From: Alphaproteobacteria bacterium
Lineage (GTDB): Bacteria; Pseudomonadota; Alphaproteobacteria; Puniceispirillales; Puniceispirillaceae
Direction of reading: 5' to 3'
Assembly: GCA_016780775.1 (NCBI GenBank)
Contig: JADHLI010000003.1
Location: 62,001 to 126,000, forward strand
Length of the DNA stretch: 64,000 nucleotides
Below the pieces are notes generated by a model, which saw nothing but the letters and a program-made list of their open reading frames with translations, ran no database searches and had not been told where the DNA came from. Of this stretch, positions 7,981 to 55,812 are shown piece after piece; the stretch's first letter is position 1; each line of letters opens with the position of its first letter. The translations under genes and the position numbers were made by a program.

Positions 7981-9894
7981 ATGGGCTATCAGCATTGGCG
8001 CTACAGCAAAGACAACGATAAGACAGCTTGGCTGGAAATAGATGTTAAGGACAGCTCTGTTAACATTCTGCGCATAGAGGTTATGCAAGAATGGGCAGAA
8101 ATTATGAAAGAGATTGCTGCTGATACCGATGTTGCCGGCCTATGCATGTTGTCTGGCAAGCCGGGAGGTTTTGTTTATGGCGCAGATATTGCCGAATTTA
8201 ACACGCTTGCTAATGAGGCAGATGTCCATAATTTGATAGCGCTTGCCGCAAGCGTTCTATCTGCTATTGAAAAGCTGGATATCCCAACAGTTTGCGGCAT
8301 TGATGGGGTTGCTGTTGGCGGTGGGTTAGAGATTGCGTTGCCATTTGACCGTATTGTTGCGGTTGGCCAGAAGCATACCAAGCTGGGCTTTCCTGAGATT
8401 AATTTAGGCATTTTCCCGGGCTATGGCGGCACCGGGCGTGCTTTGCGGCGTGTGGGTATTGAGGCCACCCTTGATATGGTGCTTTCTGGCCGCTTATTAG
8501 GGGCAGAAGAAGCGCTGTCACTGCAGCTTATAGACAGGCTAGCAGATGACGCAGATAGCTTGCGCGATATCATGCGGAACGAGTTGGCAAAGCCGAAAGC
8601 AGCTTGCCGGGTGGAGAGCGATACTAGATTTGCAGCAGCACTAGCGGTGGCAGAGGAGCGCTATTGCAGCCTAGCCATAGAGGCGGCCACGCCTGCACCG
8701 TTCAAGATTGTCCAGCACTTCAGACGCAGCGGCGGGGATTGGCAAAAGCTGGTAGAAAGCGAAAGACAGACCTTTGCACCGCTGCTTTTAGGAGAGGCAA
8801 GCTATCATTTGCGGCGCATTTTTCTGATTAAAGATGCGGTGCGAAAGACGGCCCGCGGGGACAGCCAGATTAGCCATGTACATGTTATTGGTGCAGGCAC
8901 TATGGGCGGGGATATTGCCGCTGTTGCCGCTTTAAATGGTTTTTCGGTCAGCCTTTCTGACAGGGATGCCAGCGCGGTGGAAACGGCACTAACGCGCGCT
9001 AAAACCCTGTTTGAACGCCGCTTGAAGTCGGATACCACGATTGCAGAGGCAATGTCACGCTTGGTTGCAGATATTGGTGGTGCGCATATTGGCGATGCGG
9101 ATATCATCATCGAAGCCGTGGCCGAAAGGCTGGAGGTTAAACAAGCAGTTTTCAAAGAAGTGGAGAAGTTGGCCAAGCCTGGCGCGATACTGGCGACAAA
9201 CACCTCCTCTATTATGATCGAAGATATTGCGGCTTGCCTGAACCAGCCAGAGCGGTTGATAGGCTTGCATTTTTTTAATCCGGTTCCAGTTCTGCCGCTT
9301 ATAGAAGTCATTTTTGGTGAACGCTCGGATAAGGATATTTTAGCGCGTGCGATGCGCTTTTCTGGCCAGTTGAAAAAAATGCCTGTGAAGGTGAAATCAG
9401 TTAAAGGATTTTTGGTAAACCGGGCGTTACTGCCTTATATTTTCAAGGCGATTTGTCTGATGAAAGCTGGTGAAAATGCAGATAAAATTGACCAGGCGAT
9501 GGTACGTTTTGGAATGCCGATGGGCCCCATTGAGCTTGCTGATCAGGTGGGCTTAGATGTCTGCTATGATGTGGGCAAGGTGCTGGGTATGCCTGAGGCT
9601 GCTGATAGCGAGTTAGCGGCTAAATGCAGTGATGCTATGCTCGGCCGCAAAACTGGCGCAGGCTTTTATGAGTGGGAGGGGAAAAAAGCCCTGCGCGAAA
9701 GAGCTGTTTATCCACAAGAAGAGCTAGACGCGCTAGCTGCAGACTTGCTTGCCCCAATGATAGATAAATGTCGCACGGCGGTAGAGGATGGTATTGTTGC
9801 CAGCGCTGATGATGCTGATATTGGCTGTATTCTGGGGATAGGGTTTCCGCGCTATCGTGGCGGCCCGCTAGGCTGGGCAGATTATCCGCGCTAG
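7981..9894 (+). CDS. Bifunctional enoyl-CoA hydratase / 3-hydroxyacyl-CoA dehydrogenase (FadJ/FadB type)
   Basis: Catalyses hydration of 2-enoyl-CoA and NAD-dependent oxidation of the 3-hydroxyacyl-CoA in beta-oxidation. The crotonase domain (about residues 1-200) keeps both catalytic glutamates, in AVGGGLEIAL and in FPEINLGIFPGYGG. The dehydrogenase domain starts near residue 297 with the NAD motif VIGAGTMGGD and has the HFFNPVP histidine near 430. The C-terminal 3HCDH domain ends in the typical GIGFPRYRGGPLGWAD. At 637 residues it is shorter than E. coli FadB or FadJ (about 715-730), so the linker is reduced. AGGAGAG precedes the ATG. It faces the thiolase operon convergently, which would supply the last beta-oxidation step. 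Confidence 0.92.
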   Translation: MGYQHWRYSKDNDKTAWLEIDVKDSSVNILRIEVMQEWAEIMKEIAADTDVAGLCMLSGKPGGFVYGADIAEFNTLANEADVHNLIALAASVLSAIEKLDIPTVCGIDGVAVGGGLEIALPFDRIVAVGQKHTKLGFPEINLGIFPGYGGTGRALRRVGIEATLDMVLSGRLLGAEEALSLQLIDRLADDADSLRDIMRNELAKPKAACRVESDTRFAAALAVAEERYCSLAIEAATPAPFKIVQHFRRSGGDWQKLVESERQTFAPLLLGEASYHLRRIFLIKDAVRKTARGDSQISHVHVIGAGTMGGDIAAVAALNGFSVSLSDRDASAVETALTRAKTLFERRLKSDTTIAEAMSRLVADIGGAHIGDADIIIEAVAERLEVKQAVFKEVEKLAKPGAILATNTSSIMIEDIAACLNQPERLIGLHFFNPVPVLPLIEVIFGERSDKDILARAMRFSGQLKKMPVKVKSVKGFLVNRALLPYIFKAICLMKAGENADKIDQAMVRFGMPMGPIELADQVGLDVCYDVGKVLGMPEAADSELAAKCSDAMLGRKTGAGFYEWEGKKALRERAVYPQEELDALAADLLAPMIDKCRTAVEDGIVASADDADIGCILGIGFPRYRGGPLGWADYPR

Positions 9895-9966: not shown

Positions 9967-11148
9967 CTAAATCTTGGTATCGACGATAACGGCAATGCCT
10001 TGACCGCCGCCAATACACATGGTCGCAAGCCCGTAACGTGCATCTCGGCGATGGAGTTCATATATCAGCTTGGTCAAGATAATAGCCCCTGTTGCGCCAA
10101 CCGGATGGCCAAGCGCGATAGCCCCGCCATTCGGATTGACGATATCGCTGGCAAAGCCTAGCTCTTTTGTTACGGCGCAGGCTTGAGCTGCAAAAGCTTC
10201 ATTGCTTTCCACGACATCAATATCGCTTACTCTCAAACCGGCACGGTTGAGTGCCATTTGTGAAGCGGGAACAGGGCCCATCCCCATAATGCGCGCTGGC
10301 ACGCCGCCAAACCCATAGGCAATTATTTTGGCCAATGGCGCTCTATCTCCTGACGTGGCGCTTGCCTCATCACTAAGGATAAGGGCAGCAGCTCCATCAT
10401 TAATACCGGAAGAATTACCAGCTGTTACCGCACCATCTTTTGCAAAAGCGGCACGTAAGCCAGACAAGGTTTCAAGGCTTGTATCGCCGCGTGGATGCTC
10501 GTCAGTTGTAAAAGATTTCACCTCACGGCGTGTTTTCACCTCAACGGGTACAATCTGGTCAGCAAAATAGCCCTTTTTAATGGCAGCCGCAGCGCGTTGC
10601 TGGCTAGCAAGCGCAAATTCATCCATCACCTCACGCGTAATATCATAATCAGTAGCCACATTTTCGGCGGTGATACCCATATGACCAAGCCCAAATGGAT
10701 CATGCAACGCCCCAAGCATCATATCAGTCATCTCTGCATGGCCTAGGCGCGCGCCCCAGCGCATGGCTGGCACTAGATATCCGCCTCTGCTCATCACTTC
10801 TGTCCCGCCTGCGATAGCGGTTTGCGTGTCCCCTAGCTGGATAAGTTGGGTTGCGCTAACAACTGCTTGAAGTCCGCTGCCACATAGGCGATTGACGGTC
10901 AGGGCAGGGGCGCTATCTTGCATGCCGGCTCCGATGGTAATACAGCGCGAGATATACATATCGCGCGGCTCTGTATGGATAACATTACCAAATACACCGT
11001 GCCCTATCTGGTCCGCTGGCATACCAGCGCGGGCAATAGCCTCTTTTGCTGCGATAATACCAAGGTCTATCGGCGCGCAATCTTTTAAACTGCCACCAAA
11101 GCTGCCAATAGCCGTTCGCGCCGCAGATAAAATATAAACTGAGGTCAT
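9967..11148 (-). CDS. Acetyl-CoA acetyltransferase (thiolase)
   Basis: Thiolase II type enzyme that condenses or cleaves acetoacetyl-CoA, or a related 3-ketoacyl-CoA. All catalytic residues are present: nucleophile Cys89 in NRLCGSGLQ, His348 in GHPVGATGA and Cys378 in CIGGGQG. Length is 393 residues, exactly typical. It is the last gene of the minus-strand operon dmdA, ligase, dehydrogenase, thiolase, starting 23 bases after the dehydrogenase stop. With the facing FadJ-like enzyme it completes a beta-oxidation set. It could serve polyhydroxybutyrate or ketone metabolism (PhaA/AtoB), but no phaB or phaC is nearby. Confidence 0.93.
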   Translation of the reverse strand: MTSVYILSAARTAIGSFGGSLKDCAPIDLGIIAAKEAIARAGMPADQIGHGVFGNVIHTEPRDMYISRCITIGAGMQDSAPALTVNRLCGSGLQAVVSATQLIQLGDTQTAIAGGTEVMSRGGYLVPAMRWGARLGHAEMTDMMLGALHDPFGLGHMGITAENVATDYDITREVMDEFALASQQRAAAAIKKGYFADQIVPVEVKTRREVKSFTTDEHPRGDTSLETLSGLRAAFAKDGAVTAGNSSGINDGAAALILSDEASATSGDRAPLAKIIAYGFGGVPARIMGMGPVPASQMALNRAGLRVSDIDVVESNEAFAAQACAVTKELGFASDIVNPNGGAIALGHPVGATGAIILTKLIYELHRRDARYGLATMCIGGGQGIAVIVDTKI

Positions 11149-11171
11149 GTTCGCGCTCCTCTATATATTTT

Positions 11172-12284
11172 TTAGGCTAAATCTGTCTTACTGGTATAGG
11201 CCAGTACCGCCTTTGTCATATCTTTAAGCCCCATATCCCCGCCAAATTCCATTGGCCGCAACCCGCCATCAGCAAAGCCATCTTCAACCGCCTTTTCTAT
11301 CAGGCGTGCTGCATCTACCATCTTCTGATTACCAGCTTGCCAGCCCAGCCAATCTAGCATCATCGCCCCGCTTAATATTGCGGCTAGCGGATTAGCTTTA
11401 TCCTGACCCATAATGTCAGGTGCGCTGCCATGTGCAGGCTGGAACAAACAATGATTATCGCCTATCTCCGCTGAAGCTGCCATTCCCATACCGCCAACTA
11501 GGCCACCCGCCAGATCAGACAAAATATCGCCAAAGATATTTTCCATAACCAGCACGTCCAATGCCCATGGTTTTTTAACTAGCTCTAGTGCTTGTGCATC
11601 CACATAGGCATGGCTGCTTTTGATATCAGGGAAATGTGCTGCCCGTTCATCAAATATCTTTCTGAAGAAAGCAAACGCCTGAAATACATTTGCTTTGTCC
11701 ACGCACGTTACCATATTTTTGCCGCCACTTTGCGCCCGTCTTTCTGCTAGACGAAAGGCAAAATCACATAGTCTTTCGGTAACAGAACGGGTTATACGCA
11801 AAGTTTCTCTAGCTTCATCTGCATTGGTTTTGGGGCTTCTGTCATGCACCGCAGCTGTATAGAAAAGACCCTCGGTACATTCGCGGATAATAACCATATC
11901 AATATTATTTGCCTGCTCATCCAGCAATATACGTGGCGCCCCTTTATATGCTTTTACTGGACGCACCCCTGCATAAAGCTGGAAGCGTTCACGAAGCCGC
12001 AGATGCGGCGCTATTTCTGTGCCATCCACCGCGCGAATAGCAGGCAGACCAATAGCGCCAATATACATGGCATCAGCCTTGCCAGCACGTTCCTCACCAT
12101 CCGCTTCAATGTCTTTCCCGGTATCGCGGTAATAGCCGGCACCTGCTAGAATATTTGTCTGTTGCAGGGAAAATCCGCCAATGCGTGCGCGCGCTGCCTC
12201 GACAACGGCAAAGGTGGCTTCAGTAACTTCGGTGCCGATACCGTCACCTGCAAGTATGGCAATTTCAAAATGGTCTTTTGACAT
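11172..12284 (-). CDS. Isocitrate/isopropylmalate dehydrogenase family enzyme (non-LeuB subgroup)
   Basis: NAD-dependent beta-decarboxylating dehydrogenase fold, 370 residues. Visible motifs: AILAGDGIGTEV at the start, the substrate arginines in HLRLRERFQLYAGVRPV, lysine in CVDKANVF, metal aspartates in MENIFGDILSDLAGG and the nucleotide loop HGSAPDIMGQDKANP. In the loop that normally reads RELTGGIY or RENTEGEY, this protein reads RECTEGLFY, so the position of the usual catalytic tyrosine is Phe and Tyr follows one place later. There is no leuC or leuD nearby. Its place between a ligase and a thiolase in the dmdA operon suggests a 2-hydroxy-diacid substrate in that pathway, which is inference. 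Confidence 0.8.
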   Translation of the reverse strand: MSKDHFEIAILAGDGIGTEVTEATFAVVEAARARIGGFSLQQTNILAGAGYYRDTGKDIEADGEERAGKADAMYIGAIGLPAIRAVDGTEIAPHLRLRERFQLYAGVRPVKAYKGAPRILLDEQANNIDMVIIRECTEGLFYTAAVHDRSPKTNADEARETLRITRSVTERLCDFAFRLAERRAQSGGKNMVTCVDKANVFQAFAFFRKIFDERAAHFPDIKSSHAYVDAQALELVKKPWALDVLVMENIFGDILSDLAGGLVGGMGMAASAEIGDNHCLFQPAHGSAPDIMGQDKANPLAAILSGAMMLDWLGWQAGNQKMVDAARLIEKAVEDGFADGGLRPMEFGGDMGLKDMTKAVLAYTSKTDLA

Positions 12285-12354
12285 GGATTTTCCTCATAAA
12301 TTACATATTTATAATTGGGACTTAGGCAGATTATGTGCCCCTATCAGCATGATT

Positions 12355-13995
12355 TTAAGATATTAGCTCTGCTCGAAGCATGAATTTCTGTAGCTTGCCT
12401 GTAGATGTTTTTGGAATTTCGGTGAAGCGTACTTCTTTAGGGCATTTAAATCCAGCCAGATGTTCACGCGTGAAGGCAATAACTTCTGCTGCGCTAGCCT
12501 TAATACCGTCTTTCATTTCGATGAAGGCGCAAGGGACTTCTCCCCATTTCTCATCTGGCTTGGCAACTACGGCGGCAAAGGCAACACCTGGAAAACGATA
12601 GAGCACGCTCTCAATTTCAACAGAAGATATATTCTCTCCGCCTGAGATAATAATATCTTTAAGCCGGTCTTTAATCTCCATATAGCCGTTCGGGTGGCGC
12701 ACCGCTAGATCGCCTGATTTGAATAATCCGCTCCCTAGCGCTTCTTCAGTTGCCTCTGGGTTTTTATGATAGCCCTTCATAATACAGTTGGAACGGAAAC
12801 ATACCTCGCCTAGGGTCTTACCATCTGCCGGCACACGCGCGCCCGTTTCTTGATCCAGTATTTCTATCGTTTCAGTATGGGCAAAGCGCACGCCTTGCCG
12901 CGCCTTAATTGTTGCGCGTTCGCCAAAATCTAAATCGTCCCATTCGTCATGCCACGCACAATGGGTCAGATGGCCATAAGTTTCGGTCAGACCATATACT
13001 TGGGTAACGTTAAAGCCGAGCTTTTCAATTTTCTCTAAGACCGCAGCTGGTGGCGGCGCACCTGCTGTCATCGCATTGACAGTCCAGTTAGGGCGTTGGA
13101 TAACCTCATCAGGGGCATTTACCAGCATGGATAAAACAATTGGCGCCCCGCCAAAATGAGTAACTTTATGTTCATGCAATAAAGGGTAGATAACCTCTGC
13201 GGCTATTTTGCGGCAACACACGACTGTACCTGCCAAAATTGCCATCATCCACGCATGACCCCAACCATTACAATGGAACATCGGCACCACATAAAGATAG
13301 GTGGGATGCATCTGCATATTCCAGACAGGCACAGTGCCCATTGACATCAAATAAGCGCCGCGATGATGATAAACGACCCCTTTTGGGCGTCCGCTTGTTC
13401 CGGAGGTATAATTTAGCGCCATTGCCGCCCATTCATCAGTTGGCATTTGCCATGCGTAATCTGCATCGCCGCCAGCTATAAAACGCTCATAATCTATGTC
13501 GCCAAGGCGCTGACCTGCTGCAGAATCTGCATCCTGCTCATCCACAATATCGATAACGGTTATAAATTTGTTGGGGCTTTGTTCCATCGCCTCACGCATG
13601 GTCGTGCTGAAAGCCGTGTCAGTGATCAGAATTTTGGTATCAGCATGGTCAAGGATATAAGCAATGGTGGATACATCTAAACGCGTATTTAGGGTGTTTA
13701 ATACCGCCCCCGCCATTGCGACGCCAAAATGGGCTTCAAACATCGCTGGCAGGTTTGGTGCCATCACGGTGACAACTTCCCCTTGTTTAACACCAGCCTT
13801 TACAAGTGCGCTTGCCAGCCTGACCGCGCGTTCATACACCTCTGCCCAGCTATAGCGCAATTGGCCATAAATAACCGCAGTACGTGTCGGATAGATATCA
13901 GCGACCCTAGGTAAAAATGATAATGGGGTAAGCGGCACATGATTGGCTTCGCGCCTGTCCATGAAGCCAGAATTTGTTATGTCCATCTTGCTCAT
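12355..13995 (-). CDS. AMP-dependent acyl-CoA synthetase, second gene of dmdA operon
   Basis: Activates a carboxylic acid to its CoA thioester through an acyl-adenylate. It has 546 residues from ATG 13995, chosen because GAGGG lies just upstream; a GTG at 14007 would add four residues. The ANL motifs are complete: P-loop YTSGTSGRPKGV, QVYGLTETYGH, the hinge GDLAVRHPNGYMEIKDRLKDII and the catalytic lysine in KTSTGKLQK. The protein contains MDRREANHVPLTPLSFLPR, seen in a widespread short-to-medium-chain ligase group. Directly downstream of dmdA, it is the obvious candidate for the methylmercaptopropionate-CoA ligase step, but it looks like a different ligase subgroup from the DmdB I know, so I leave the symbol empty. 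Confidence 0.9.
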   Translation of the reverse strand: MSKMDITNSGFMDRREANHVPLTPLSFLPRVADIYPTRTAVIYGQLRYSWAEVYERAVRLASALVKAGVKQGEVVTVMAPNLPAMFEAHFGVAMAGAVLNTLNTRLDVSTIAYILDHADTKILITDTAFSTTMREAMEQSPNKFITVIDIVDEQDADSAAGQRLGDIDYERFIAGGDADYAWQMPTDEWAAMALNYTSGTSGRPKGVVYHHRGAYLMSMGTVPVWNMQMHPTYLYVVPMFHCNGWGHAWMMAILAGTVVCCRKIAAEVIYPLLHEHKVTHFGGAPIVLSMLVNAPDEVIQRPNWTVNAMTAGAPPPAAVLEKIEKLGFNVTQVYGLTETYGHLTHCAWHDEWDDLDFGERATIKARQGVRFAHTETIEILDQETGARVPADGKTLGEVCFRSNCIMKGYHKNPEATEEALGSGLFKSGDLAVRHPNGYMEIKDRLKDIIISGGENISSVEIESVLYRFPGVAFAAVVAKPDEKWGEVPCAFIEMKDGIKASAAEVIAFTREHLAGFKCPKEVRFTEIPKTSTGKLQKFMLRAELIS

Positions 13996-14030
13996 TACAA
14001 CCCTCACTTACATCACTGCGCTATCTAGAG

Positions 14031-14090
14031 TCTATTTTTCTAGGTCCTATTTTTCTGGGGCCTATTTTTCTGGGGCCTATTTTTATGCAC
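14031..14090. repeat. Four tandem copies of a 15-base unit between dmdA and the ligase gene
   Basis: Units start at 14031, 14046, 14061 and 14076. The two middle units are identical (CCTATTTTTCTGGGG) and the outer two differ at a few bases. No interspersed spacers, so it is not a CRISPR. It fills the 113-base gap between the dmdA stop and the ligase start. Confidence 0.9.
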
Positions 14091-14108
14091 AATCTTGAAC
14101 CACCTTGG

Positions 14109-15227
14109 TTACGCTTTTGGCTTAAAAGGCATGCTTGTTAGGCGCGCATTGCGCATTTTCCCGTCTATTTCCACGTCAATTATCCGGCCATCCTCGACCT
14201 GTTCAGATGCTAGCATAGCAAGGCCAAGATTTAAGTCAAAATCAGGCGAAAAGACAGCAGAAGTTACAAAGCCACAATTCTGACCGCCTTGGAAGCAGGG
14301 CGCTATCTTTGTTATTGGGGCTATTTTTTCGCCCTCGATTATCAGGCCGGTTATCTGTTTTCTCAGGCCTGTCTCCCGCTGTGTCAGCAACGCTTTTTTT
14401 CCGATAAAATCATTTTCAGAATCAAGGCTGCAGAATTTATCTAATCCGCATTCAAGAGGGGTGTCTTCGCGTGACATATCATTGCCATAAGAGAGCAGTC
14501 CGCCTTCGATACGCTCGATTAAGTTTGGGCAACCTGCGCGCATATCATAGGCCCTCCCAACTTCCCAGATATCATCCCAAAGTTGCAGGCCAAGTGTACT
14601 ATCATGCAGGTAAATCTCAAATCCACCCTGCTTGCTCCATCCTGAACGTGCGATCATTAATTTATGGCCGCGCCAGTCGAAATAATCAAAGGCGAAAAAC
14701 TTTAATGCGGTTACCGCATCGCCAAAAATCTCTGCTAGCACCTTTTCAGCAAGCGGGCCTTGGATGGCAAGCGGTGATACATCAGGCTCGCTAACCTCAA
14801 CATCCATTCCATAGGCATGGGCAAGGCCAGCTGCCCATAACAACATATCTGAATCCGCGATAGAAAACCAAAAGGTGTCCTCAGCAATACATAAGGCTAT
14901 CGGGTCATTCAACATGCCGCCATCAGCTTGGCAAATAGGGGTATAATAGCCTTTGCCCGGCACTGCTTTGCTTAGGTCACGTGCGCTCATTAAAACGGCT
15001 AATTTTCTTGCATCAGGGCCCTTCAGTTGCACTTGGCGTTCAACAGATACATCCCAGATTTGCACAGCACGTTTCAAATGCGCACAATCTTCCTCTAGCG
15101 AGGTAAAACTAGCAGCCAATAGCATATGATTATAAACAGTGTAAGAGGATAGCCCTGCTGCCTCTACACGGGGGGTGAAAGGGGTTGCTCGTACCCGCCG
15201 AGAGGCAAAAACAGGAAATCCAGACAT
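14109..15227 (-). CDS. dmdA: Dimethylsulfoniopropionate demethylase DmdA
   Basis: GcvT-fold enzyme that moves a methyl group from DMSP to tetrahydrofolate, giving methylmercaptopropionate; the entry step of marine DMSP demethylation. It has 372 residues from ATG 15227, where GAGGTG sits seven bases upstream; the in-frame TTG 15239 is less likely. Long stretches match DmdA rather than glycine-cleavage GcvT as I recall them: TVYNHMLL, VQIWDVSVERQVQLKG, RDLSKA, FWFSIADSD, IARSGWSKQGGFEIY, GCPNLIERIEGGLLSYGND and SLDSENDFIGKKAL. No gcvH or gcvP is near. It heads a four-gene operon with ligase, dehydrogenase and thiolase. Distinction from DmdA-like paralogues rests on motif recall, not on an alignment. 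Confidence 0.87.
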   Translation of the reverse strand: MSGFPVFASRRVRATPFTPRVEAAGLSSYTVYNHMLLAASFTSLEEDCAHLKRAVQIWDVSVERQVQLKGPDARKLAVLMSARDLSKAVPGKGYYTPICQADGGMLNDPIALCIAEDTFWFSIADSDMLLWAAGLAHAYGMDVEVSEPDVSPLAIQGPLAEKVLAEIFGDAVTALKFFAFDYFDWRGHKLMIARSGWSKQGGFEIYLHDSTLGLQLWDDIWEVGRAYDMRAGCPNLIERIEGGLLSYGNDMSREDTPLECGLDKFCSLDSENDFIGKKALLTQRETGLRKQITGLIIEGEKIAPITKIAPCFQGGQNCGFVTSAVFSPDFDLNLGLAMLASEQVEDGRIIDVEIDGKMRNARLTSMPFKPKA

Positions 15228-15364: not shown

Positions 15365-16000
15365 CTATAGCAACTGATTTATCTGGCTCAAAAATAGTGA
15401 TAATCCCAGTGCTAGCAGCAAAATAGCAAAGCTGACATCTATTTGTTTCTGGTAGCGTTCCAGCCAGCTTTGGCTAGCTCTGGTACTGGCAAGGCAAACC
15501 ATCGCAACATAAATGGCACTATCAATAAAACCAGCAAGGCTAGCCATGCCAAGATGTGTGGTAACGCTCTGCTCTGGGGTGATGAACTGGCTAAAAAGAG
15601 AGGCAAAAAAGGTCGCAATTTTAGGATTGAACAAAGCAATCGCTAGCCCATCGCGAAAACTATGACCTAGGCCGCCTCCCGGTGCTGGTGCGGCTTCTAT
15701 GTTGTTTTGTTTGCCCAAAGTGGCTTTTAGCAGTCTAAACCCTATCCAGATGAGTAATAATGCGCCTGCACTCTGAATAAGGGTGAATAGCATCTGATAA
15801 TGGCTGAGGATAAGCCCAAGAGTGGTTGCGGCAAGCAACGCATAAATAAAAACCCCAAGCCCATGCCCAATAGAGGCAGACAAGCCGGCATTGCGTCCAT
15901 AAAGACGCGTATTGCCAAGAATGACTATCAGGCTGGGGCCGGGGGAACTTGCCCCTAAAAGGCAGATAAGTGCCAGCGATGCCCAGTCCGATATACTCAT
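15365..16000 (-). CDS. LysE/RhtB family amino acid exporter
   Basis: Six-helix inner membrane exporter of 211 residues. The family signature at the first helix is clear: LALICLLGASSPGPSLIVILGNTRLYGRNAGLSASIGHGLG, followed by the NPKIATFF motif near residue 125. Such proteins export amino acids like homoserine, threonine or lysine. The ATG overlaps the carbonic anhydrase stop as ATGA, so translation is coupled to the upstream gene. Substrate unknown. Confidence 0.9.
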   Translation of the reverse strand: MSISDWASLALICLLGASSPGPSLIVILGNTRLYGRNAGLSASIGHGLGVFIYALLAATTLGLILSHYQMLFTLIQSAGALLLIWIGFRLLKATLGKQNNIEAAPAPGGGLGHSFRDGLAIALFNPKIATFFASLFSQFITPEQSVTTHLGMASLAGFIDSAIYVAMVCLASTRASQSWLERYQKQIDVSFAILLLALGLSLFLSQINQLL

Positions 16001-16674
16001 CTAGTAGGCTTACTTTCGGCTGCATCAGGAACAAGCTGGATAAAATTTCCGCTTCCCTCATCTAGGCTCCAAAGCGCGCCATTTTCCATATCAAACCACC
16101 AGCCATGAAGATGAAGCTTGCCAGCCTTTACAGCTTCTGCAATCCATGGAAAGCCGCGCAGATTAGCAACTGAATTTTTAATTGAAGCACGCTCTGCGTC
16201 ATGCTGGAAGCTATCTTGCCAATTTGCAAAATCAATATTCTGCATAGCCGGGGTTGCTACATCAATCCAGTTACCAATAAACTCGCGGCTAGGGGCGTCG
16301 GGTTTGCCGCCATTTTCCTGCAATTTGCGATGATGGCTGCATATGGCTTGAACGCCGCCGCAAAGCCCGTGGCCTAAAACAATAATATTTTCTACCATCA
16401 AATCACGCACCCCATATTCGAGGGCAGCACTAACCCCATGCAGGCCTGCGTCAGGGGCATAGGGGGGAACAAGGTTTGCTACATTGCGCACCATGAACAA
16501 ATCGCCTGGGCGCGTATTAAATAAAATGGCCGGGTCAACGCGGCTATCAGCACAGCCTACAACCATCGTTTTTGGTTTCTGCCCCTTGGATACCAAATCA
16601 CCAAATTCACTGCTCGCCTTACCAAAGAACCTGTCTCTGAAATTCTGGAAGCCATCAATAAGGGAGGTAACCAT
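15997..16674 (-). CDS. Beta-class carbonic anhydrase
   Basis: Zinc enzyme that hydrates CO2 to bicarbonate in the cytoplasm. The zinc ligands and catalytic dyad are visible: Cys41 and Asp43/Arg45 in GCADSRVDP, then His102 and Cys105 in GHGLCGGV. The length of 225 residues is typical. An AAGGAAC ribosome site precedes ATG 16674. It overlaps the LysE-type gene by four bases, forming a two-gene operon; the pairing may be only transcriptional. A spacer of about 150 bases separates it from the divergent dehydrogenase gene. Confidence 0.93.
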   Translation of the reverse strand: MVTSLIDGFQNFRDRFFGKASSEFGDLVSKGQKPKTMVVGCADSRVDPAILFNTRPGDLFMVRNVANLVPPYAPDAGLHGVSAALEYGVRDLMVENIIVLGHGLCGGVQAICSHHRKLQENGGKPDAPSREFIGNWIDVATPAMQNIDFANWQDSFQHDAERASIKNSVANLRGFPWIAEAVKAGKLHLHGWWFDMENGALWSLDEGSGNFIQLVPDAAESKPTR

Positions 16675-16827
16675 GTTGCTGTTCCTTTGCTATTTTGAAA
16701 ATTTTAATCCATTGTTTCATAAACTTGCCATAACAAAGGTATAAACGAATACCATTGCTGGCACACGATTATAGTTGTACCTATGGAAGCGGTATAAATC
16801 TAGAGGTGATGAGGAGCAAGCGGCGTG

Positions 16828-17901
16828 ATGCTAAAGAATAAATATTCGATTGCAGTGATTGCAGGGGATGGCATTGGTAAAGAAGTAATGCCAGAGGGTT
16901 TGCGTGCGCTGGAAGCCACTTGTCACAAATTCGGCATTAATTTGGAATTTACTGAATATCCTTTCTCCAGCATCGATTATTATCAGAAACATGGCCAGAT
17001 GCTGCCAGATGATTGGCAGGAAAGTCTAACTGCGCATGATGCGATTTTCTTTGGTGCGGTTGGTTGGCCAGAAATTCTACCTGATCATATTTCTTTATGG
17101 GGATCTTTGTTAAAGTTCAGGCGTGAATTTGATCAATATGTGAATCTGCGTCCTGTGCGGCTTATGCCGGGTGTGCCGTCCCCTCTGGCGGGGCGCGAGC
17201 CAGGCGATATTGATTTTTGGATTGTCCGGGAGAACACCGAAGGCGAGTACAGCTCTATTGGTGGCCGGATGTTTGAAGATACGGACCGCGAATTTGTGGT
17301 TCAGGAAACGATAATGACACGCACTGGCGTTGACCGAATTTTGAAATATGCCTTTGAGCTAGCCAGTAAAAGAGAGGCAAAGCATCTCACCTCTGCTACG
17401 AAATCAAATGGTATTTCTATATCTATGCCTTATTGGGATGAGCGGGTGGAGGAGATGGCAACATCCTACCCAGATATTTTTGTTGATAAATATCATATTG
17501 ATATTCTAACAGCGCATTTTGTATTAAACCCAGATAAATTCGATGTGGTGGTGGCATCAAACCTGTTTGGGGATATTTTGTCTGATTTAGGCCCTGCCTG
17601 TACAGGTACTATTGGTATTGCCCCATCAGGTAATATTAATCCAGATGGTGATTTCCCGTCATTATTTGAGCCTGTGCATGGTTCTGCGCCTGATATTGCT
17701 GGCATGGGCATTGCCAATCCGGTGGGTCAGGTTTGGGCAGGGGCAATGATGCTGGAACATCTAGGGCATAAGGATGCTTCGGATGCGATGGTGGAAGCGA
17801 TTTCGGATACGCTTCAAGATAGCCGTCTGCGCACCCGCGACCTGGGTGGAGAGGCTGATACGATTACCTGTGGTAAGGCCATAGCGGAGCGCTTGGCTTA
17901 G
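16828..17901 (+). CDS. D-malate / tartrate dehydrogenase (DmlA/TtuC type)
   Basis: NAD-dependent beta-decarboxylating dehydrogenase that turns D-malate into pyruvate, or acts on tartrate. It has 357 residues from ATG 16828; a GTG three bases earlier is also possible with the AGGAG site at 16812. The catalytic loop is RENTEGEYSS with the usual tyrosine, the metal site is ASNLFGDILSDLGPA, and the nucleotide loop is HGSAPDIAGMGIANPVG. The segment ISLWGSLLKFRREFDQYVNLRP marks the tartrate/D-malate subgroup rather than LeuB. It is a distant paralogue of the enzyme at 11172-12284. Confidence 0.87.
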   Translation: MLKNKYSIAVIAGDGIGKEVMPEGLRALEATCHKFGINLEFTEYPFSSIDYYQKHGQMLPDDWQESLTAHDAIFFGAVGWPEILPDHISLWGSLLKFRREFDQYVNLRPVRLMPGVPSPLAGREPGDIDFWIVRENTEGEYSSIGGRMFEDTDREFVVQETIMTRTGVDRILKYAFELASKREAKHLTSATKSNGISISMPYWDERVEEMATSYPDIFVDKYHIDILTAHFVLNPDKFDVVVASNLFGDILSDLGPACTGTIGIAPSGNINPDGDFPSLFEPVHGSAPDIAGMGIANPVGQVWAGAMMLEHLGHKDASDAMVEAISDTLQDSRLRTRDLGGEADTITCGKAIAERLA

Positions 17902-43567: not shown

Positions 43568-44334
43568 ATGTGCTGAGTGATCCTGCTACCTTATGGATGA
43601 TAGCTGGCGTTTATGTACTAGCTGGCTTTATTAAAGGGATAATCGGTATTGGCCTGCCAACAACAGCTCTAGCTCTGCTTACCATCATTGTAACGCCGCT
43701 AGAAGCGATGGCGATTAATATTCTGCCAATGATGGTCACCAATCTTTATCAGTTTTATCGCGCTGATAGCTATCGCCAGCTGGTACGTGATTATTGGCGA
43801 TTTGCATCTGTGATGGTGGTTTTTTTGCTAATTGCCTCTTTCTATGCTGCCGGGTTAGGCAATGATATTATTCGCATGCTAATTGCTATTTCAGTGTTAA
43901 TCTTTGCATTGAATAATCTGTTTGGTATGCAGTGGCGACTGAACCCACAATATGATGGCAGATGGCAAGCTTTGATGGGCGGCTTATCGGGAATATTGGG
44001 TGGACTTACCTCTATTTGGGGCGTGCCGATGACCATTTATTTGGTGATGAAACAGCTTAAGCCCAAACAATTTGTTGATGCGACTGGCTTTTTGATACTT
44101 GTGGGCTGTTTTCCCCTCACCGCTGGTTATTTTCAGACTGGCATCTTAAAGCAAGAGGCGTTTTTGCCTGCATGTGCTGGGGTAGCGGGCGCGTTTGCTG
44201 GGTTTTATTTTGGGGCAAGCGCACGCCATAGGATAGCGCCAGCCTTGTTTCACAAGCTGGTGTTAGTGATGTTTCTTGTGATGGGTCTGAAGATGGGATA
44301 CGATACTCTCTTAGCGTATAATTTACTGTCCTGA
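43564..44334 (+). CDS. TauE/SafE family sulfite/anion exporter
   Basis: 256-residue membrane protein of the TSUP family with about eight hydrophobic segments. The paired repeats show [40 protein letters not shown] early on and [37 protein letters not shown] midway. Members export sulfite, sulfoacetate or other organosulfur-derived anions, so a link to sulfur metabolism such as the DMSP route is possible but unproved. It overlaps the pterin dehydratase gene by four bases. Its last codons and stop flow directly into the 15-base tandem array that starts at about 44315. Confidence 0.88.
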
Positions 44335-44464
44335 GATTTGTTGTCTTATAAATCACTGGCCTGAGATTTACTGTCCTGAGATTTACTGTCCTGAGATTTA
44401 CTGTCCTGAGATTTACTGTCCTGAGATTTACTGCCCTATAATTCATTGGCCTGAACCGCTCTTA
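44315..44464. repeat. Tandem array of a 15-base unit, about nine copies, between tauE-like and eamA genes
   Basis: Five near-identical units of CCTGAGATTTACTGT run from 44360 to 44434 (the last ends in C). They are flanked by decayed units at 44315, 44330, 44345, 44435 and 44450. The array begins inside the last codons of the exporter gene, includes its stop, and reaches the start of the next gene. The pairs 44330-44359 and 44420-44449 also resemble each other as 30-base units. There are no spacers between units, which rules out CRISPR. Confidence 0.92.
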
Positions 44465-55317: not shown

Positions 55318-55660
55318 AATTTAGTGGGGCCGCTTCTGTTGCCAGGTGCAGCCCCGAACCCCGCCTGCTCGAGCTCAAGCGAACAGGACTTTAAAAGTGG
55401 TCATGTTACCGCATTAAGCAGCAACAGCAACCGGAGCAGTGTTGTCATTTGCAACTACTACATGGCCCGATAACGGCGGGTACCATACCGAACGAAGATA
55501 AGGCCTTTACCACATGCGTCGATCCTATTTCGCCCCCAAAAACCCATCCTATCCGAAACTGTTTTATATCTGGCCAGAATGGTGAGCTTGTATTGGTGGA
55601 GGCGCCGGGTACCGCCCCCGGGTCCGCCCTGCTTATTTCGCAATATGTTTATCGTCATAG
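55318..55660 (-). ncRNA. ssrA: Two-piece (circularly permuted) tmRNA
   Basis: Read on the minus strand, the gene runs acceptor piece (about 55660-55594), a 56-base intervening segment (55593-55538), then coding piece (55537 to about 55320). The acceptor ends in CGCCUCC, A and an encoded CCA; the coding piece starts GGGGGCG, which pairs over seven positions with a G3-U70 wobble, the alanine identity pair. The tag frame at 55452-55414 encodes ANDNTAPVAVAA then UAA, an alphaproteobacterial-type tag. CGCAUGUG in the coding piece can pair with CAUAUUGCG in the acceptor. A strong hairpin closes the coding piece (55326-55355). Exact 5' and 3' ends are approximate. Confidence 0.93.
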
Positions 55661-55682
55661 TCAGCCAAAGCTGACACCTTAC

Positions 55683-55711
55683 ATTATAGACGGAATGCGG
55701 AATTTTTGAAA
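55683..55711 (-). promoter_or_regulatory. Candidate promoter of ssrA
   Basis: Perfect TATAAT on the minus strand (55688-55683) with a weak -35 (TTTCAA, 55711-55706) at 17-base spacing. It would start transcription a little upstream of the acceptor piece. Confidence 0.5.
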
Positions 55712-55812
55712 GTTTTTTACATCATCGCTAGCCACCATCTGGCATCGCCGCAATTGTTTTGCTAATGTCGGCTGAGGCAAATCCTTTAAAACAGATGAGA
55801 GATCTTCATAAA

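Follow-up and report, generated by a model that had tools for sequence, protein, structure and literature searches.

A dmdA-ligase pair in a Puniceispirillaceae genome as the predicted first half of a split DMSP demethylation pathway

Dimethylsulfoniopropionate (DMSP) is an algal sulfur compound, and its demethylation sets the share that goes to methanethiol and biomass as against dimethyl sulfide. SAR11 bacteria and most SAR116 bacteria demethylate DMSP without DmdD. We analysed the DMSP demethylase gene dmdA and its neighbours in a 64,000-nucleotide stretch of DNA (hereafter the window; contig JADHLI010000003.1, positions 62,001 to 126,000, assembly GCA_016780775.1) from a near-complete 2.2 Mb alphaproteobacterial genome of the Puniceispirillaceae, from a marine bacterium that we place in the SAR116 order; C23, C35, C36 and C41 denote other contigs of that genome. 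Our preferred reading, to which we give a probability of about 0.7, is that dmdA and the adjoining ligase gene are the first half of an ordinary DMSP demethylation pathway whose second half lies elsewhere in the same genome, the pathway thus being split and not replaced. Gene presence, conservation and recurrent linkage were observed directly, while we infer every reaction and any co-expression.

Described systems and the dmdA-ligase pair

The SAR11 dmd operon of Ca. Pelagibacter ubique, drawn earlier as dmdA-mhpC-fadD-mmgC with no role given to the hydrolase (PMC3160333), shares with the window's genome dmdA, a ligase of the PRK08162 type (~55% identical), a dehydrogenase with PF12806 and one family of alpha/beta hydrolases. 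However, the SAR11 genes stand in one operon, whereas the window's genome has dmdA-ligase and dmdC-metY-hydrolase-FadN on different contigs, and in the window it is an isopropylmalate dehydrogenase (IPMDH)-like gene and a thiolase gene that come after the ligase. The DmdABCD system of Ruegeria pomeroyi (PMC5395565) has the same predicted reaction sequence, but the window ligase is of the PRK08162 and not the PRK07008 subfamily, and no dmdD was identified in the window's genome, which has AcuH-like and FadN-like hydratases instead. The available portions of two SAR116 surveys (PMC8547437, PMC12262181) list, as here, dmdA, low-identity dmdB and dmdC, acuH and methanethiol oxidase, with dmdD mostly missing; these portions give presence and absence, and do not describe a split arrangement or a metY-hydrolase-FadN linkage. 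The 2025 survey (PMC12262181) already puts forward dmdABC together with acuH and methanethiol oxidase, a proposal that the window's genome fits. The elements that may be new are the split arrangement and the recurrent co-occurrence of ligase, dmdC, FadN-like, hydrolase and MetY genes, and the locus is real but less exotic than first proposed.

The genes of the locus are as follows.
14109..15227, minus strand: dmdA, DMSP demethylase (NCBIfam PRK12486, best PDB match 3tfh, DmdA clade); an alternative TTG start 12 bases upstream is possible
12355..14007, minus strand: acyl-CoA ligase of the PRK08162 type, adjoining dmdA; predicted methylmercaptopropionate-CoA ligase (DmdB role)
11172..12284, minus strand: beta-decarboxylating dehydrogenase, IPMDH-like, not LeuB (PF00180, tree, neighbours)
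9967..11148, minus strand: beta-ketothiolase, BktB subfamily (PRK09051)
7981..9894, plus strand: FadJ-like enoyl-CoA hydratase/3-hydroxyacyl-CoA dehydrogenase (PF00378+PF02737+PF00725)

The four minus-strand genes are separated in turn by 101, 70 and 23 bp, and the FadJ-like gene converges on the thiolase gene with 72 bp between them. A preliminary description of the window had proposed just such a dmdA-headed run converging on a FadJ-type gene, and all five genes are where it placed them. Its further statement that no dmdC or dmdD is adjacent is correct locally but does not extend, for dmdC, to the genome as a whole, where a homologue lies on C23.

By model cut-off, clade and closest structure, the window's dmdA is a bona fide dmdA. 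The protein scores 500.9 bits against the curated DMSP demethylase model PRK12486 (cut-off 410), its best PDB match is the P. ubique DmdA 3tfh (359 bits), and a tree of 57 proteins joins it to P. ubique 3TFH and to the roseobacter homologues in a fork of 34 rows (support 91/95). This fork leaves out GcvT and the C36 paralogue of the same genome, as well as the divergent DmdA-like proteins of family f4; the placement among GcvT-like paralogues that the preliminary description named as its refutation is thus not what the tree gave. The GWSKQGG..EIY motif of DMSP-contacting residues is as in P. ubique, but is non-discriminating, since the roseobacter homologues have GYSKQGG. Judged by its family, DmdA would demethylate DMSP to methylmercaptopropionate, with tetrahydrofolate as the methyl acceptor.

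The C36 paralogue (L168:6523-7683) reaches 374 bits, below the PRK12486 cut-off, and shares ~60% identity with genes that lie 6-7 kb away from dmdA in genomes of the HIMB59-like kind. The divergent gene of family f4 heads a metY-hydrolase-fadN-ligase run in six loci (L256, L271, L272, L273, L278 and L279); its product in L256 scores 383.7 bits against the same cut-off of 410, and is possibly a different demethylase. Apparent in-frame stops in other DmdA-like genes were checked in six loci, and each proved to be the regular C-terminal stop.

The ligase passes the PRK08162 model (835 bits, cut-off 677), as does the SAR11 operon ligase (865 bits). Ligases of this type adjoin dmdA in the window's genus, in the relative g10, in Pelagibius (as dmdA-ligase-acuI), in a Rhodospirillales metagenome-assembled genome and in SAR11, where 42 of 43 loci read dmdC-ligase-hydrolase-dmdA and the other ligase-hydrolase-dmdA; in one SAR11 locus (L033) the run is leuCDB-dmdC-ligase-hydrolase-dmdA, with gene ends overlapping or nearly so. 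The SAR11 and Pelagibius contexts support the prediction that the window's ligase would convert methylmercaptopropionate to methylmercaptopropionyl-CoA.

The second half of the pathway on other contigs

The genome has a single PF12806 dehydrogenase (54.6 against a cut-off of 30.3), encoded on C23, and its best PDB match, at 454 bits and full length (residues 2-579), is 6ijc, taken here as a structure of DmdC. This dmdC is followed by metY (657 against PRK08134, cut-off 636), an alpha/beta hydrolase gene and a FadN-like gene. An AcuH-like crotonase on C35 matches 5xzd (RdAcuH, PMC5651017) with 292.5 bits, AcuH being able to act as a DmdD isoenzyme (PMC5651017), and there are two homologues of the SBP56-family methanethiol oxidase. 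The candidates for the hydratase are thus the AcuH-like crotonase, the enoyl-CoA hydratase (ECH) domain of the FadN-like protein, and the FadJ-like gene of the window.

The two halves are found together in other bacteria. In g10 and G122, dmdC and the metY-hydrolase-fadN genes lie beside ligase-dmdA; genes of the C23-type block also adjoin dmdA or the ligase in g8 and in G107 and G109, as well as in G355 and G251, which belong to another family, and in family f120 dmdA adjoins metY-hydrolase-fadN. Two further families have dmdC-ligase-metY-hydrolase and fadN-ligase-metY-hydrolase, with no dmdA in view. Order and strand vary among these arrangements, which therefore do not represent a single inherited block, although loci of one clade are not independent counts. 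A chance estimate for the dmdA-hydrolase linkage takes related genomes as independent, and is not to be taken as a probability. The linkage names a small gene set, namely the PRK08162 ligase, DmdC, a FadN-like enzyme, an alpha/beta hydrolase and MetY, and a pathway judged solely by the neighbours of dmdA will show false gaps. The variant fate of methylmercaptopropionate put forward in the preliminary description is disfavoured by the C23 genes and by the occurrence of such a block beside dmdA or the ligase in other genera.

In the split pathway that we prefer, the DmdC-type dehydrogenase of C23 would oxidise methylmercaptopropionyl-CoA to methylthioacryloyl-CoA, which either the AcuH-like crotonase of C35 or the FadN-like ECH domain of C23 would hydrate, freeing methanethiol. 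The C23 hydrolase would perhaps cleave the CoA ester, MetY would fix methanethiol into methionine, and the two SBP56-family enzymes could oxidise what methanethiol remains.

In the window's genome the hydrolase of the SAR11 operon matches a single protein, that encoded on C23 (34% identity, E 2e-45), and a Ser-Asp-His triad is invariant across the SAR11-operon and metY-linked groups; that dmd operons of SAR11 and metY pairs of alphaproteobacteria have one hydrolase family in common may be new. The structure that AlphaFold predicts for the SAR11 hydrolase (mean pLDDT 73.7, the cap being weak) resembled esterases, haloperoxidases and C-C hydrolases to about the same degree, giving no clue to the substrate. 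The genome's sole match to the MetX model is a fragment within the C23 hydrolase (32.5 bits); none of 14 control genomes passed the cut-off either, which makes this a weak test. The enzyme may act as a CoA-ester hydrolase or in homoserine chemistry, a MetX-like or otherwise homoserine-related role being conceivable. Some of the work of the absent DmdD could also fall to the hydrolase: we tentatively suggest, while thinking it rather doubtful, that in SAR11 and SAR116 bacteria lacking DmdD methylthioacryloyl-CoA would be hydrated by a separate hydratase (e.g. the FadN-like ECH domain) and the CoA ester cleaved by the hydrolase, the two replacing the two-in-one DmdD next to a MetY that captures the freed methanethiol.

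Several observations weigh against the split pathway. The ligase falls short of PRK07008, the curated model for 3-(methylthio)propionyl-CoA ligases (303 against a cut-off of 822), so methylmercaptopropionate is a putative substrate, and its pairing with the IPMDH-like gene in a relative without dmdA (G123, below) allows another substrate. Adjacency of metY and the hydrolase gene held in 26/26 loci examined class-wide, many with no dmd genes in view, and the hydrolase would thus be part of MetY-linked metabolism generally, with DMSP one setting. PF12806 dehydrogenases and FadN-like enzymes are, moreover, broad beta-oxidation types.

Conserved neighbours of dmdA and the ligase

Another way to read the locus is as a variant pathway in which activated methylmercaptopropionate is broken down by the local IPMDH-like, thiolase and FadJ-like enzymes and not by dmdC and a DmdD-type hydratase. 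The dmdA-ligase-IPMDH-thiolase order is indeed kept in four genus mates (DmdA identity 64-91%), with FadJ opposite the run wherever the contig extends far enough; this recurrence shows that the arrangement is not chance. A relative, L011, shares the whole locus, and dmdA and the ligase are a real conserved unit. The relative g6 retains dmdA-IPMDH-thiolase even with the ligase gone, and the FadJ-like protein carries an ECH domain, both of which favour the variant. However, the same genome carries dmdC and metY, the clade of the IPMDH-like protein is tied to acid-sugar kinases (see below), and we know of no C4 thioether acid chemistry that requires a 3-isopropylmalate-type oxidative decarboxylation. 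G123 (on two contigs) also retains ligase-IPMDH-FadJ with neither dmdA nor the thiolase in place, and G122 has dmdA-ligase without IPMDH. The IPMDH-like gene is conserved in the dmdA operon only in g1 and g6, and the thiolase in g1, g6 and, near dmdC, g10. Judging from g6, G123 and G122, dmdA-ligase and IPMDH/thiolase/FadJ are two units that can come apart, and we consider the variant pathway very improbable.

The arrangement in G123, where a tartrate dehydrogenase gene lies directly next, counts in favour of an operon devoted mainly to the catabolism of another carboxylic acid by the ligase, thiolase and FadJ-like enzyme, with dmdA a passenger that arrived with carbonic anhydrase and LysE genes. 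The company of dmdA and a carbonic anhydrase gene in several genera agrees with this, but in SAR11, Pelagibius and g10 dmdA is accompanied by the same ligase subfamily, with the IPMDH-like gene not adjacent and the thiolase adjacent in g10 only, and we regard this explanation too as unlikely.

Under the split pathway, the IPMDH-like, thiolase and FadJ-like genes would be conserved neighbours, probably with acid-sugar and beta-oxidation functions, and not pathway steps. The IPMDH-like protein has PF00180 only and lies below every equivalog cut-off tested (LeuB, tartrate dehydrogenase and isocitrate dehydrogenase). It is not LeuB (240.5 against 353.2, and by the tree; a stronger PF00180 gene on C41 is likely LeuB), nor the tartrate dehydrogenase TTC (239.6 against 470.4, and by the tree), and the IPMDH-family gene beside the SAR11 dmd operon is not the same gene, as it closes a leuC-leuD-leuB run. 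Instead, it groups in a supported clade with proteins encoded beside DUF1537 acid-sugar kinases: such a kinase stands beside the relative in 13/13 loci of f3 and in 3/4 of the closest class relatives, those three also having a class II aldolase, while other members of the clade stand alone (e.g. L104). As in the DUF1537 (OtnK) acid-sugar clusters cited in PMC10580937, the relatives of the IPMDH-like gene adjoin OtnK- and OtnC-like genes, but the window's own gene is separated from its kinase, the genome's DUF1537 and aldolase genes being on C23. This company of its relatives makes a role in DMSP metabolism doubtful, and we read the gene as one that shares the locus and encodes a putative oxidative decarboxylase for an acid-sugar or malate-type substrate. 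The thiolase passes PRK09051, the BktB subfamily model (601, cut-off 565), and scores 564 against 725 for the BktB equivalog NF042999; the FadJ-like protein has FadJ-like domain make-up but falls below the FadJ equivalogs (TIGR02440, 370 against 968; PRK11154, 442 against 869). Together the pair looks like beta-oxidation.

Further features of the window and its relatives

Upstream of dmdA and within the dmdA-ligase gap lie the following.
14032..14084, no strand: 15-bp tandem repeat between dmdA and the ligase gene (3.5 copies, 94% matches)
15365..16000, minus strand: LysE-type exporter gene (PF01810), near dmdA in g1 and g6
15997..16674, minus strand: beta-carbonic anhydrase family gene (PF00484)
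16825-17901: another beta-decarboxylating dehydrogenase, which scores above the cut-off for tartrate dehydrogenase (570, cut-off 470) and is 82-85% conserved in relatives

A carbonic anhydrase gene is near dmdA in g1, g6, g10 and family f120 (L313, L314). The near-perfect repeat at 14032-14084 could fold as a hairpin and may affect transcription through the operon. Rfam gave no riboswitch match near dmdA in the window, nor by metY in the loci searched, and promoter and terminator scans came close to the shuffled expectation and were uninformative. An imperfect 15/45-bp tandem repeat lies at window positions 44317-44454, between two membrane-protein genes, and an alphaproteobacterial permuted tmRNA at 55323-55715. 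In one relative (L277, 14910-15009), Rfam matched a pyrrolysine insertion element (PYLIS_3, mttB).

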